Assembly (NCBI GenBank): GCA_945879075.1
Contig: CAMCUY010000016.1
Coordinates: forward strand, 1-34,422
Origin: Akkermansia muciniphila
Lineage (GTDB): Bacteria > Verrucomicrobiota > Verrucomicrobiia > Verrucomicrobiales > Akkermansiaceae
Length of the DNA stretch: 34,422 bases
Reading direction: 5' to 3'
Shown: positions 18,045 through 25,262 of the stretch, piece by piece
Layout of the letters: every line of letters starts with the position of its first letter
Numbering within the stretch: position 1 is the stretch's first letter
Notes under the pieces: model-generated
Database searches by the model: none
What the model saw: the letters and a program-made list of their open reading frames with translations, nothing else
Told to the model about the DNA's origin: nothing
Position numbers and translations under genes: made by a program

Positions 18045-18197
18045 GGGAGGCCAAGAGCGATGCCCCCCGGTGAGTGCTTTGTAAAGCCAAGGTGGAGTGA
18101 AGTTTGAAAGTCTCTGAAATTTGGGGTTGCGGAGGGCAAACCGGACTTCCTAGTGTCGCGCCACGCAAGGATTTCACTGCTCACTCAAAAAGAACCC

Positions 18198-18989
18198 ATG
18201 TCCAAAGTCTTCGGAATTCTCACAGCAATCGCCCTCGGCCTCTCGGCTCTCATTGCTTCCAAAAACCAAGCTGAATTCGAGTCCCGCACTGCGGAGACCG
18301 CAGCCGAAAAGGACCTTCTCACCAAGGCTCAAGCCCGCCTCAAGGCAGCCCAGGAAGTGCTTGCGGCCCTCCCTGTCGAACGCGCCGGCGTGGATGCGGA
18401 GGTCGAAACCTTGACCGCCACCGAAGCGCGCCAGCAGAAAACCAATGCCGGAATCAAGGCGGAGATCGAAGCCACCACCGCCAAGATCGCCGCGAATCAG
18501 GAGGAACTCGACGGCATCCGTGACAAGACTTCCAAAATGGGAGATTTGAAGGAGCTCGCCTCCAAGATGCGCGCCACCAGCGGCGAACTCGAGGAGTTGG
18601 CCCAGTCGATCACGGCAAACGAGGCGAAACTCGCCAATCTCACCGCCCAGGATGCTTCCACGAACACTCAAATTGGCGATGCTAAAAGCAAGTTCGACTG
18701 TTTCAGCAACAGTCGGTCACTTCCCTCGCTGAAAACACGGATTCGTTCGATTTATCCGAACTGGGGCTTCGTGACCCTTGCCTCCGGCAACAGTGCCGGC
18801 GTGGTGATCAACTCAACCCTCGACGTCATTCGTGAAGGCGAAACGATCGCCAAACTTCTGGTTACCGCGGTCGAGAGCAACTCATCATCCGCCAGCATCG
18901 TGCCGGATTCCCTGGCGCCGGACGTGACCCTGATGGTGGGCGATCAAGTGATTCCCGGTCCAGCAGCTGTTATAACCGCCAGCAACTGA
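18198..18989 (+). CDS. Membrane-anchored coiled-coil protein, paralogue 1
   Basis: This 263-residue protein starts at the ATG at 18198. One N-terminal hydrophobic helix (FGILTAIALGLSALIA) is either a signal anchor or an uncleaved signal. Residues about 25-170 are a long coiled coil rich in Ala, Glu, Lys and Gln. The last 80 residues form a compact beta-type domain beginning YPNWGFVTLASGNSAG and ending LMVGDQVIPG. The layout loosely recalls MreC, but no family is recognised. The next gene has the same architecture and shared motifs, so the pair probably arose by duplication and may form a hetero-oligomer in the periplasm. A poor leader (AGAACCC) precedes the start. Confidence 0.8.
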   Translation: MSKVFGILTAIALGLSALIASKNQAEFESRTAETAAEKDLLTKAQARLKAAQEVLAALPVERAGVDAEVETLTATEARQQKTNAGIKAEIEATTAKIAANQEELDGIRDKTSKMGDLKELASKMRATSGELEELAQSITANEAKLANLTAQDASTNTQIGDAKSKFDCFSNSRSLPSLKTRIRSIYPNWGFVTLASGNSAGVVINSTLDVIREGETIAKLLVTAVESNSSSASIVPDSLAPDVTLMVGDQVIPGPAAVITASN

Positions 18990-19027: not shown

Positions 19028-19837
19028 ATGAAACCCATTCTTTACTCCGTCGCAATCGTCGCAGCATGCGGTGCCGCGTTTCTATCGTTCACTAAGTCTC
19101 AAAAATTCAAGGCTCTTGAATCGGACCGGGTCGAAACGATCGCCACCAAGAAACAGACACTTGCTGATGCCGATGTCGCCGACACTGAAATTAAAAAGGA
19201 AAAGGTGCTGCTTGCCGCTTCCCAAGAGAAACAGGAGTTGCTGACCCAGAGCGTGTCCTCGCTCAAGTCCACCGGAACCTCACTCGCGAACGATCTTGCC
19301 AAAGTGAACGAGGATCTCAAAAGCCAGGATGAGGAATACGCTCAGCTTGAAAAAGCCCTTGAGGAGGTCAACAAGATCCTTGCTGATCTCGGCGGTGGCG
19401 TGACTCTCGATACCCTGCCGGATAAAATCCAACAGATCGACGACGATAAGAAAGCCAAGCAGACGAAACTTGAAGAGCTCGAAGTGCTTGTCGGCGGTGC
19501 TGAGAAAAGCCTCGCCACCAGCAGCGCTGAACTGGACCGCCTTACCAAGCGGATGATCGAGCGCAACGTGCGGATCGGCCGCAATTCGATGGACGCGGTC
19601 GTCACTGCGGTGAATCAGGATTGGGGATTCCTGGTCATCGGTGCCGGTTCGAATTCCGGTTTTACTCCGCAGACCGGACTGTTGGTCGAGCGCGACGGAC
19701 GCAAGATCGGCCGGGTGCGTCCCTCCGCGATCGAGCCGACCCAGACGATCGCCGAGATTGACCTTGGGAGCCTCTCCTCCGGCGTGCGACTCCAGCCCGG
19801 TGACCGCGTGATTCTCGCCCAACCGGTGGCCAACTGA
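19028..19837 (+). CDS. Membrane-anchored coiled-coil protein, paralogue 2
   Basis: This is 269 residues long, 38 bp after paralogue 1, with a clear AAGGA ribosome binding site at 19017-19021. The N-terminus has a signal-anchor helix (ILYSVAIVAACGAAFLSF), then a coiled coil to about residue 190. The C-terminal domain carries QDWGFLVIGAGSNSG, LLVERDGRKIGRV and LQPGDRVILA. These align with NWGF, GNSAG, LDVIREGETI and VGDQVI of paralogue 1. Function is unknown; a periplasmic scaffold or spacer is inferred. A strong intrinsic terminator follows, so the two genes form a complete transcription unit. Confidence 0.82.
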   Translation: MKPILYSVAIVAACGAAFLSFTKSQKFKALESDRVETIATKKQTLADADVADTEIKKEKVLLAASQEKQELLTQSVSSLKSTGTSLANDLAKVNEDLKSQDEEYAQLEKALEEVNKILADLGGGVTLDTLPDKIQQIDDDKKAKQTKLEELEVLVGGAEKSLATSSAELDRLTKRMIERNVRIGRNSMDAVVTAVNQDWGFLVIGAGSNSGFTPQTGLLVERDGRKIGRVRPSAIEPTQTIAEIDLGSLSSGVRLQPGDRVILAQPVAN

Positions 19838-19854
19838 TCAAACTATTTATTTCC

Positions 19855-19892
19855 AAAAGCTCCGCAGGCTTGCATGCCGCGGAGCTTTTTTT
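19855..19892 (+). terminator. Intrinsic terminator after the coiled-coil pair
   Basis: AAAAGCTCCGC at 19855-19865 pairs perfectly with GCGGAGCTTTT at 19879-19889 around a 13-nt loop, and a run of seven T follows at 19886-19892. It is 18 bp after the stop of paralogue 2. This is the only textbook Rho-independent terminator I found in the window. Confidence 0.92.
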
Positions 19893-19902
19893 ATGGTCGG
19901 GC

Positions 19903-20094
19903 ATGAAGCGAAATTTCTCTCTGTTGCTGCTCGTCGTTGCCGCCAGTCTCGGGTTCTCCTCCTGTGCCGACGAGCCTGCGAGGAGGCCCGTGGGGCCGGT
20001 TTCCGAAACCAGCAAGATCCCGTGGAACAGCCCGGTGGCCGGTCAAGGTCAAGGTCAGTTCGGCATGATGCCGCAGAACCAATACCGCCGCTGA
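19903..20094 (+). CDS. Small lipoprotein
   Basis: This 63-residue protein starts at the ATG at 19903, just past the terminator; an upstream in-frame ATG at 19870 would lie inside the terminator loop and is unlikely. MKRNFSLLLLVVAASLGFSSC is a lipoprotein signal with lipobox LGFSSC and the acylated Cys at position 21. Asp at the second mature position (CADEP; the order is C-A-D) does not give a clear sorting signal. The mature part is about 40 residues, polar, with GQGQGQFGMMPQNQ at the end. No family is recognised. It is convergent with rlmH, whose stop is 13 bp away. Confidence 0.7.
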   Translation: MKRNFSLLLLVVAASLGFSSCADEPARRPVGPVSETSKIPWNSPVAGQGQGQFGMMPQNQYRR

Positions 20095-20601: not shown

Positions 20602-20934
20602 ATGACGAAGCTCATGATTGTGCCGTTGATTCTCTCCCTAGCCGCCTGCGCCAGCGGTCCCGGGCCTGTTACTCCTGAAAACCAGACCGAGCGACAGATG
20701 CTCGGGCTCCTCGAAAAATTCGACCGCTGGGATGACGATGGCAATGGCGAGTTGACCGCGAAAGAAGTGGACCACGGCATCAACCGCTTCAAGGGCACGC
20801 CGATGGAGGTTAATTACACCGGCAAGCAAGTCATCGGGTTTTACGACACCGACCACAGCGGCTCCGTGTCGCTGCGGGAAGCGCAAGCCGGCTATCATCG
20901 CGCCCGTGAGCTGGAGGGCCGACTCAACCGATGA
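20602..20934 (+). CDS. EF-hand lipoprotein
   Basis: This 110-residue protein has a lipoprotein signal (MTKLMIVPLILSLAAC, lipobox SLAAC). Two EF-hand loops follow. The first, DDDGNGELTAKE, has acidic or Asn ligands at 1, 3, 5 and Glu at 12. The second, DTDHSGSVSLRE, has Asp, Asp, Ser and Glu at the same positions. It should bind Ca2+ at the outer or inner membrane surface. Its stop overlaps the next start as ATGA, so translation is coupled to the methyltransferase. The functional link between an exported Ca2+ protein and a cytoplasmic enzyme is not obvious. Confidence 0.85.
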   Translation: MTKLMIVPLILSLAACASGPGPVTPENQTERQMLGLLEKFDRWDDDGNGELTAKEVDHGINRFKGTPMEVNYTGKQVIGFYDTDHSGSVSLREAQAGYHRARELEGRLNR

Positions 20935-21665
20935 ACTCCATCTATGAATCCGAAAAGCTTGTTGCGGAGTATCTGTTATTCCATTTCGGCAGGCCGGAGG
21001 AAATCCTGACTCCGGATCGCGTCTGGCCTCAGGGCATGCATGATGCCTTGGACTTCGCTGTCCGCACGACCGCGCATTTCTCTCCGGAAACCGCAGACCG
21101 CGGCTTGGACCTCGGATGCGCCGTCGGCCGCTCGGCCGGTGAAATGTCCCGCACCTGTCGCGAGGTGGTCGGCATCGATTTCTCCCACGCTTTCATCCAT
21201 GCCGCGGAGGCTTTGAGAGATGGAAAACCGCTGGCCTTCGACCGCCGGGAGGAAGCGTCCCGGGTGACGGCTCTCGAAGCCCGGTTTCCCGCCGGGATTG
21301 ACGGCTCCAGGCTCCATTTCCAACAAGGCGACGCCATGCACCTGTCGCCGGACCTCGGCGCTTTCGACCGCGTTCATGCGGCGAACCTGCTCTGCCGCCT
21401 GCCAGAACCGGAAAAATTGTTAGCCCGGCTTCCCGCCTTGGTGAAACCGGGCGGCGAGCTCGTGCTGGCGACGCCGTGCACGTGGCTTGAGGAATTCACC
21501 CCGCCGCGGAACTGGCCCGTTAGCGGGACTTTCGAGTGGCTGGAATCCACGCTCGCGTCCTCCTTCACACTGCTGCGCCGGGCGGACGAACCCTTCCTGA
21601 TCCGCGAGACCGCCCGCAAGTTCCAGTGGACCACCTCGCTGGTCACCGTCTGGCGGAAAAAGTAG
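20931..21665 (+). CDS. Stand-alone 4-mercaptohistidine N1-methyltransferase-like protein (OvoA C-terminal domain family)
   Basis: This 244-residue SAM-dependent methyltransferase matches the C-terminal domain of OvoA, which methylates 4(5)-mercaptohistidine in ovothiol synthesis. Seen motifs are LDLGCAVGRSAGEMSR (SAM motif I), VVGIDFSHAFIHAA, AANLLCRLPEPEKLL, TWLEEFTPPRNW and PFLIRETARKFQW close to the end. The last two are very characteristic of that family. The protein has no DinB or FGE-type sulfoxide synthase domain, and no such gene is in the window, so the partner must be elsewhere or the substrate differs. It resembles the separate methyltransferases of ovothiol-like or selenium-containing histidine pathways. 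Its stop lies inside a large inverted repeat shared with tsaB. Confidence 0.85.
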   Translation: MNSIYESEKLVAEYLLFHFGRPEEILTPDRVWPQGMHDALDFAVRTTAHFSPETADRGLDLGCAVGRSAGEMSRTCREVVGIDFSHAFIHAAEALRDGKPLAFDRREEASRVTALEARFPAGIDGSRLHFQQGDAMHLSPDLGAFDRVHAANLLCRLPEPEKLLARLPALVKPGGELVLATPCTWLEEFTPPRNWPVSGTFEWLESTLASSFTLLRRADEPFLIRETARKFQWTTSLVTVWRKK

Positions 21666-24326: not shown

Positions 24327-25262
24327 ATGCCTTCCCCACAGCGCTTTCATCACCGGCAGTTCGCCGATGTGGACGCGTTGGTGGCTTTGAAAAATTCGCA
24401 GCGCGTCTCCGTCTGCATCCCCACGCTCAACGAAGCGGAGACCATCGGCACTATCGTTTCAATCATCCGGGAGACACTCGTGCGCCGCGGGCTGGTCGAT
24501 GAAATCCTCGTCATCGACTCCGGCTCCACGGACACCACTCGCGAACTCGCCGCTGCAGCGGGAGCCGGCGTCCACCTCGCCTCCGGGATTCTTCCGGACC
24601 GGACGGGCTATTGCGGAAAGGGCGAAAACCTCTGGAAAGCCCTCCACGTTTCCAGCGGCGACATCATCTGTTACGTCGATGGCGACATCTCGAATTTCCA
24701 CCCCGGCTTCGTCACCGGACTCGTCGGTCCGCTGCTCGCCGACCCCGCCGTCGACTATGTCAAGGCCTTCTACGAACGCCCGCTGGCCTACGGCGATGAG
24801 TCCCACTCGACCGGCGGCGGGCGTGTCTCGGAAATCCTCATCCGGCCGCTGATCTCGCTGTTCTATCCGGAGCTCGGCGGCATCCTCCAGCCGCTTTCCG
24901 GCGAATACGCCGCCCGCCGCGTGACTCTGGAATCGCTCGCGTTCCCCGTGGGTTACGGCGTGGAAATGGCACATCTCATCGACCTCGCGCGCGACGGGAA
25001 AATCGACCGCATCGCCCAGACCGACCTCGTCAAACGCATCCACCGCAACCGCGACGACGACGAGCTTGGCAGCATGGCCTTCGCCATCCTCCGCGTGGTG
25101 CTCCGCCGCCTGGAGCGCGACGGCAAGCTCACTCTCGCATCTCCCCTGCCCGCTCTCTATCAATCGTGGGCGATCAACGGGGAAAGTATCGAACCGCTCG
25201 CGAAAACCATCCCCGAGCCCGAGCGCCCGCCGGTCCGGGGTGACTCAGGCATGCCTGCCTGA
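24327..25262 (+). CDS. gpgS: Glucosyl-3-phosphoglycerate synthase
   Basis: This 311-residue GT-A glycosyltransferase matches GpgS (family GT81), which transfers glucose from NDP-glucose to 3-phosphoglycerate, giving glucosyl-3-phosphoglycerate. Motifs in order are VCIPTLNEAETIG (29-41), DEILVIDSGSTDTT (58-71), GKGENLW (97-103), metal-binding DGD (118-120), YVKAFYERP (144-152), GGGRVSE (163-169), PELGGILQPLSGEYAARR and GYGVEMAHL. H239 in RIHRNRDDDELG corresponds to the metal-binding His of mycobacterial GpgS. After dephosphorylation the product, glucosylglycerate, is a compatible solute or a precursor of methylglucose polysaccharide. No GpgP phosphatase is recognised beside it. The stop lies in an inverted repeat. 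Confidence 0.88.
   Translation: MPSPQRFHHRQFADVDALVALKNSQRVSVCIPTLNEAETIGTIVSIIRETLVRRGLVDEILVIDSGSTDTTRELAAAAGAGVHLASGILPDRTGYCGKGENLWKALHVSSGDIICYVDGDISNFHPGFVTGLVGPLLADPAVDYVKAFYERPLAYGDESHSTGGGRVSEILIRPLISLFYPELGGILQPLSGEYAARRVTLESLAFPVGYGVEMAHLIDLARDGKIDRIAQTDLVKRIHRNRDDDELGSMAFAILRVVLRRLERDGKLTLASPLPALYQSWAINGESIEPLAKTIPEPERPPVRGDSGMPA

Follow-up and report, generated by a model that had tools for sequence, protein, structure and literature searches.

A stand-alone OvoM/OvsM-type methyltransferase of Akkermansiaceae and its co-distribution with an M29/NicX-like protein in genomes without detected OvoA

Three kinds of N-methyltransferase acting on thio- or selenohistidine are the closest described counterparts of the gene product studied here. 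OvoM methylates 5-thiohistidine and, as defined, works with the OvoA sulfoxide synthase of the same genome. OvsM methylates 5-selenohistidine in a pathway with a selenoxide synthase of the DinB/FGE type. The third methyltransferase is fused to its synthase as the C-terminal domain of OvoA (OvoC; PDB 8khq). A stand-alone methyltransferase gene is not new in itself, as both OvoM (Sulfuricurvum; PDB 9bxl–9bxn) and OvsM (Marinimicrobium koreense; PDB 9bxh–9bxk) are stand-alone enzymes. The gene described here was found in a contig of Akkermansia muciniphila (GCA_945879075.1, CAMCUY010000016.1), and the whole stretch of 34,422 nucleotides that was analysed is referred to as the window. An earlier note on this DNA had described an ovothiol-type methyltransferase as a gene of its own that overlaps an EF-hand lipoprotein gene by 4 bp. 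Both points were borne out, the one by the open reading frame together with profile, PDB and fold matches, the other by the shared bases, two canonical loops of 12 residues each and a lipobox recognised by eye (Table 1). The 110-aa protein matched Pfam EF-hand_6 (2.4e-7, 30.3 bits, cut-off 25); a match to XopAW (24 bits, cut-off 120) was rejected as mere EF-hand resemblance. A promoter and terminator scan gave no signal above chance.

Table 1. Coordinates of features at the two-gene locus (window positions)
Feature	Position	Strand	Basis
EF-hand lipoprotein-like gene, 110 aa	20602..20934	+	ORF, Pfam
Lipobox-like signal LAAC, Cys16 of the EF-hand protein	codon 20647-20649	+	read by eye
EF-hand loop 1, DDDGNGELTAKE, residues 44-55	20731..20766	+	protein sequence
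EF-hand loop 2, DTDHSGSVSLRE, residues 82-93	20845..20880	+	protein sequence
GGAGGG, putative methyltransferase RBS within the EF-hand gene	20913..20918	+	inference
ATGA, stop of the EF-hand gene and start of the methyltransferase gene, 4 bases common to both	20931..20934	+	
Stand-alone OvoM/OvsM/OvoA-C-type SAM methyltransferase gene, 244 aa	20931..21665	+	profiles, PDB, model
Codon of methyltransferase Cys155, just past modelled strand 145-151	21393..21395	+	model, alignment
Codon of methyltransferase Cys183, immediately past modelled strand 171-182	21477..21479	+	model, alignment
RETARKFQ, family motif near the C-terminus, retained in the clade of the window methyltransferase	21603..21626	+	

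The window methyltransferase matched the NCBIfam model TIGR04345 (ovoA_Cterm) over positions 1–242 of 242 with 164.4 bits (E 3e-48). The curated cut-off of 170 bits was not reached, and close relatives fell on either side of it. OvsM was the best match in a sequence search of the PDB (1.3e-39), and the matches to OvsM, OvoA and OvoM spanned 1.3e-39 to 5.3e-32. The AlphaFold model (pLDDT 90.7) was most similar to OvsM 9bxk, the nearest solved structure (Z 30.0, rmsd 1.9 over 230 residues, 39% identity of aligned residues), followed by OvoM (Z 29.7, 34% aligned identity) and the homologous OvoA C-terminal domain (Z 28.4). The next fold, that of the carnosine N-methyltransferase CARNMT1, reached a Z of only 19.3. 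In the wide sense, the gene product belongs to the thio/seleno-imidazole N-methyltransferase superfamily of OvoA-C, OvoM and OvsM. It resembles OvoM in being stand-alone, in length and in the RETxRKxQ and NLxxR motifs, but has a shorter loop past Trp195, without Gly-Gly. Matches to TIGR04345 were present in 145 of 195 Akkermansiaceae genomes, so the gene is not a chance open reading frame, and a scan of the window's own genome returned the window gene as the single place. Among the best 80 named of 440 methyltransferase-encoding stretches, all titles referred to Akkermansiaceae or other Verrucomicrobiota, except one 'Bacterium'. Matches to the methyltransferase also occurred in 21 plasmid records, and 14 of the 20 among those listed were annotated as ovoA.

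Neither the synthase part of OvoA nor a DinB_2 domain was detected in the genome of the window (2.39 Mb, 135 contigs, 90% complete). With the OvoA N-terminal model TIGR04344, whose cut-off is 400 bits, the best score in this 90% complete assembly was 23.9 bits, and DinB_2 (PF12867) gave no match there. The earlier note had seen no sulfoxide synthase in the window; for OvoA, this absence holds genome-wide, and a full-length OvoA elsewhere in the genome, which the note had named as contrary evidence, was looked for and not found in the 90% that is covered. PF03781 gave six matches in the same genome, of which two inspected by eye were formylglycine-enzyme-like and lipoprotein-like. Across the family, OvoA exceeded the TIGR04344 cut-off in 0 of 195 Akkermansiaceae genomes. 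Matches below the cut-off (115.9–132.9 bits) occurred in 14 of the 195 and may represent EgtB/OvsA-type proteins. One Akkermansiaceae genome (G088) contained an OvoA-type gene broken into several frames on contig C355 (L232); its stand-alone methyltransferase (C96) was intact, and it also had the partner gene described below.

A common upstream gene on the same strand, with a product of about 390–404 aa, was present at 40 of 58 methyltransferase loci from the phylum, and is hereafter called the partner gene. At a threshold of 1e-20, 75 of 387 phylum genomes had a TIGR04345 match, and OvoA exceeded its cut-off in 18 of these 75. The remaining 57 genomes were the same 57 that had a strong partner match (599 bits or more), one of them (G314) also with a TIGR04344 match of 126 bits, and the partner was found in 0 of the 18 OvoA genomes of the phylum sample. 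Weaker partner-like matches (121–142 bits; G295, G327, G381, G412, G476 and G522) were set aside as paralogues, as were weak second matches in G259, G353, G433 and G457. Counted by the stand-alone gene, the methyltransferase occurred in 64 of 387 phylum genomes, with the partner in 57, OvoA in seven and never both; G088, with its broken OvoA beside the pair, is not part of this sample. In 43 of 57 genomes, the partner was a same-strand upstream neighbour of the methyltransferase, with no more than 7 kb between the two matches; the distance was within 150 nt in 30 of 57, the latter spanning 12 of the 16 pair-bearing families. The two genes were not close in 14 of 57 genomes, including that of the window, and in 12 of these 14 they were on different contigs. 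Among the 195 Akkermansiaceae genomes, 137 had both genes, 43 neither, eight the methyltransferase alone (G001, G018, G046, G094, G106, G130, G138 and G149) and seven the partner alone (G004, G017, G080, G096, G134, G157 and G194). Of the partner-only genomes, G004 and G017 were those listed for genus g5, and the other five were 78–89% complete. These counts ignore kinship, and the co-occurrence is partly shared descent. No further widely shared gene on the same strand was found among the clusters listed for the 80 named and 58 phylum loci; the clustering was based on raw open reading frames, and large antisense clusters were regarded as mirror images and ignored. On plasmids, the partner had three distant matches, two of them annotated as aminopeptidase. 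The window genome's own copy of the partner gene is apart from the methyltransferase (C47:969-2183, L238), downstream of a gene with a bifunctional-nuclease domain (PF02577; L238:426-914) and, by eye, near metal ABC transporter-like genes.

The partner was not recognised by the profile libraries. Pfam gave no match to the window genome's own copy or to two relatives, NCBIfam gave none to the two relatives, and PF02073 (M29) did not match the own copy up to an E of 5. Two partner paralogues scored 26.2 and 20.2 bits with PF02073, both below the cut-off of 27. The paralogues in Verrucomicrobiota (L269-L274; about 121–143 bits) were M29-like as well. A PDB sequence and profile search with a partner relative and the A2 profile yielded no match, and after addition of the paralogues a profile search reached AmpS at 6e-4. 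The model of the own partner (pLDDT 94.3) was closest in fold to the 2,5-dihydroxypyridine dioxygenase NicX (7cn3_C; Z 26.4, rmsd 3.9 over 309 residues), at only 13% identity, and more distant from the M29 aminopeptidases of the same superfamily (Z 17.8–19.1; AmpT 19.1, AmpS 19.0, PepS 18.9). Partner residues E236, E298, H323, H349 and D351 were invariant (38/38). E236, E298 and H323 aligned with residues of AmpS (1zjc), in which we take Glu, Glu, His and HxD to be the metal ligands; the alignment stops short of the HxD pair (H349 and D351 in the partner), which may correspond to the HxD pairs of AmpS and NicX. The iron ligands of NicX are His265, Ser302, His318 and Asp320 (PMC7910607). Judged by spacing, partner Glu298 would sit near His265 of NicX. 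The partner is most likely a two-metal hydrolase, because it retains residues alignable with an M29 peptidase; since its fold is closer to the oxygenase NicX than to the peptidases, it may instead be an oxygenase. Among the literature matches listed, none concerned the partner protein or the structures of OvoM and OvsM.

The methyltransferase itself differs from its described counterparts at two positions. Residues 155 and 183 (window numbering) were Asp and Tyr in all three references, OvoA, OvoM and OvsM, whereas both were Cys in the window methyltransferase. Of 81 Akkermansiaceae rows, the window included, 79 had Cys155/Cys183 and two had Cys with another residue. Cys155 was present in 44 of 50 wider stand-alone methyltransferases, a set with at least 10 rows from Akkermansiaceae whose genomes may overlap with those of the other set. 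Over 159 rows, Tyr183 accompanied Asp155 in 23/23 cases and Cys155 in 1/128, and eight fused domains had Glu155. In the model, residues 152–155 follow strand 145–151 and residue 183 follows strand 171–182, strands that we take to be beta-4 and beta-5. In class I methyltransferases, the beta-4/beta-5 edge binds SAM and the substrate. Asp155 and Tyr183 would be features that define OvoM, OvsM and OvoA-C, and the changes to Cys make 5-thiohistidine less likely as the substrate in the clade of the window methyltransferase. Six partner-linked methyltransferases retained Asp155/Tyr183, so the Cys pair is not required for the partnership, and the change to Cys took place within the partner-linked group or occurred repeatedly. 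A branch with 95% SH-aLRT placed 18 fused domains together with OvoA, OvoM and OvsM on one side and the window methyltransferase on the other, in a tree that was built by a quick search without bootstraps and took in 10 of the 80 named rows.

We consider, with a probability of about 0.55, that the product of the window gene is a SAM-dependent N-methyltransferase that is independent of OvoA, has the M29/NicX-type protein as its pathway partner, acts on a ring nitrogen of an azole, and has the EF-hand gene as a bystander. In such a pathway the metalloenzyme would make or trim a compound, and the methyltransferase would methylate a ring nitrogen of that compound, which may be a small histidine derivative or another azole; both would act in one route without OvoA. 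It is unlikely that the M29/NicX-fold enzyme goes as far as replacing OvoA/OvoB or OvsA, giving rise to an ovothiol-like or new N-methylated azole or histidine mark.

An ordinary OvoM, which would methylate the Npi of 5-thiohistidine supplied by neighbours or by an unfound synthase and in which the Cys changes would be neutral, is a doubtful but serious alternative. It is in keeping with the full-length family match and the fold, and above all with the fate of fused OvoA domains. Of the 18 methyltransferase domains fused to OvoA, eight had lost family residues at several out of ten motif sites. These eight formed one tree group (support 100); the other 10 kept the motif residues, save for Arg229 to His in seven. 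Where the fused domain had decayed, a stand-alone methyltransferase was also present in seven of eight genomes, compared to 0/10 of those with an intact domain. The decayed fused loci (L134, L136, L139-L144) and loci L177-L183 came from two Verrucomicrobiota families. In one family (f5), a second, stand-alone match was found in 20/20 genomes with a fused OvoA-length frame, decay having been checked in four, and in five genomes the stand-alone gene was 12–37 kb from OvoA on the same contig. A stand-alone gene in the same genome as a decayed OvoA domain is most simply read as a rescue in trans of the kind that OvoM provides, and this pattern is what speaks most strongly against a change of substrate. 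The seven stand-alone enzymes that accompany OvoA, all without the partner, comprised four with Asp/Tyr and three with Cys/Phe (L181-L183). With three Cys155 enzymes among the seven, Cys155 may suit a thiohistidine, and close relatives of the window methyltransferase may work with OvoA. An ordinary OvoM is harder to reconcile with the lack of OvoA over the cut-off in 57/57 stand-alone-only phylum genomes (the 126-bit match of G314 included) and with the near-absence of Tyr183 from Cys155 rows, and it leaves the strict tie to the partner unexplained. Modification of a macromolecule, with the methyltransferase acting on a protein histidine or RNA and the partner as a peptidase on the same target, is improbable. 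The methyltransferase gene is mostly single-copy, occurs in 14 of 16 Akkermansiaceae genera and has housekeeping genes as neighbours (in the window, rlmH and tsaB; by eye, tsaB-, YchF- and FtsZ-like frames in relatives), a pattern more like that of core physiology than of a natural-product pathway with a patchy distribution. However, to judge from their PDB titles, free amino acids are the substrates of the nearest solved relatives, and the gene was found in no genome among those listed for genus g3, presumably Akkermansia.

The earlier note had also coupled the methyltransferase to the EF-hand lipoprotein and suggested checking whether the gene pair is conserved. The pair recurred in a part of Akkermansiaceae: among the 30 genomes with the best matches, the EF-hand gene was upstream of the methyltransferase in 17 (window counted in) and, by sequence pattern, in 21 of 76 usable named Akkermansiaceae loci (22/80 by BLAST cluster), four of the 80 having been left out for less than 450 nt of upstream sequence. 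Of the same 76 loci, 13 had the M29/NicX-like partner upstream instead and 42 had neither gene, so that the EF-hand pattern was absent from 55 loci that retain the methyltransferase. Among the 58 phylum loci, the EF-hand gene was not one of the recurrent neighbours. The pairing is real yet restricted to part of Akkermansiaceae, and the proposed coupling found no support. A functional pair is therefore very unlikely despite the 4-bp overlap and the recurrence; in addition, the lipoprotein is likely to be exported, and the methyltransferase likely to stay in the cytoplasm. Probably the EF-hand gene is just a bystander, which would have become linked to the methyltransferase in one lineage.

For annotation, these distributions imply that the TIGR04345 cut-off would label the gene a 4-mercaptohistidine N1-methyltransferase in 34 of the 57 stand-alone-only genomes, in which OvoA was not found (52 phylum genomes over the cut-off minus 18 with OvoA). 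With Roseibacillus and Luteolibacter records among the methyltransferase loci, the methyltransferase and the library-unrecognised metalloenzyme form a concrete two-gene unit that is testable in cultured strains, and the pair may point the way to a new small molecule or modification, one common across Akkermansiaceae but not seen in the listed genomes of genus g3.

Other features of the window were recorded alongside the locus. Two adjoining coiled-coil-like proteins (18153-18989 and 19028-19837), with C-terminal ends that are similar by eye, had no Pfam match, and 30 of 80 related loci had a cluster of open reading frames upstream at about the distance of these genes. They are followed by a small putative lipoprotein of 74 aa (19870-20094; start codon TTG) that ends in IPWNSPVAGQGQGQFGMMPQNQYRR, and a cluster with this ending was present in 14 of 80 related loci. 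Downstream of the methyltransferase, a glucosyl-3-phosphoglycerate synthase gene (24327-25262; 357.9 bits, cut-off 262) points to glucosylglycerate synthesis.
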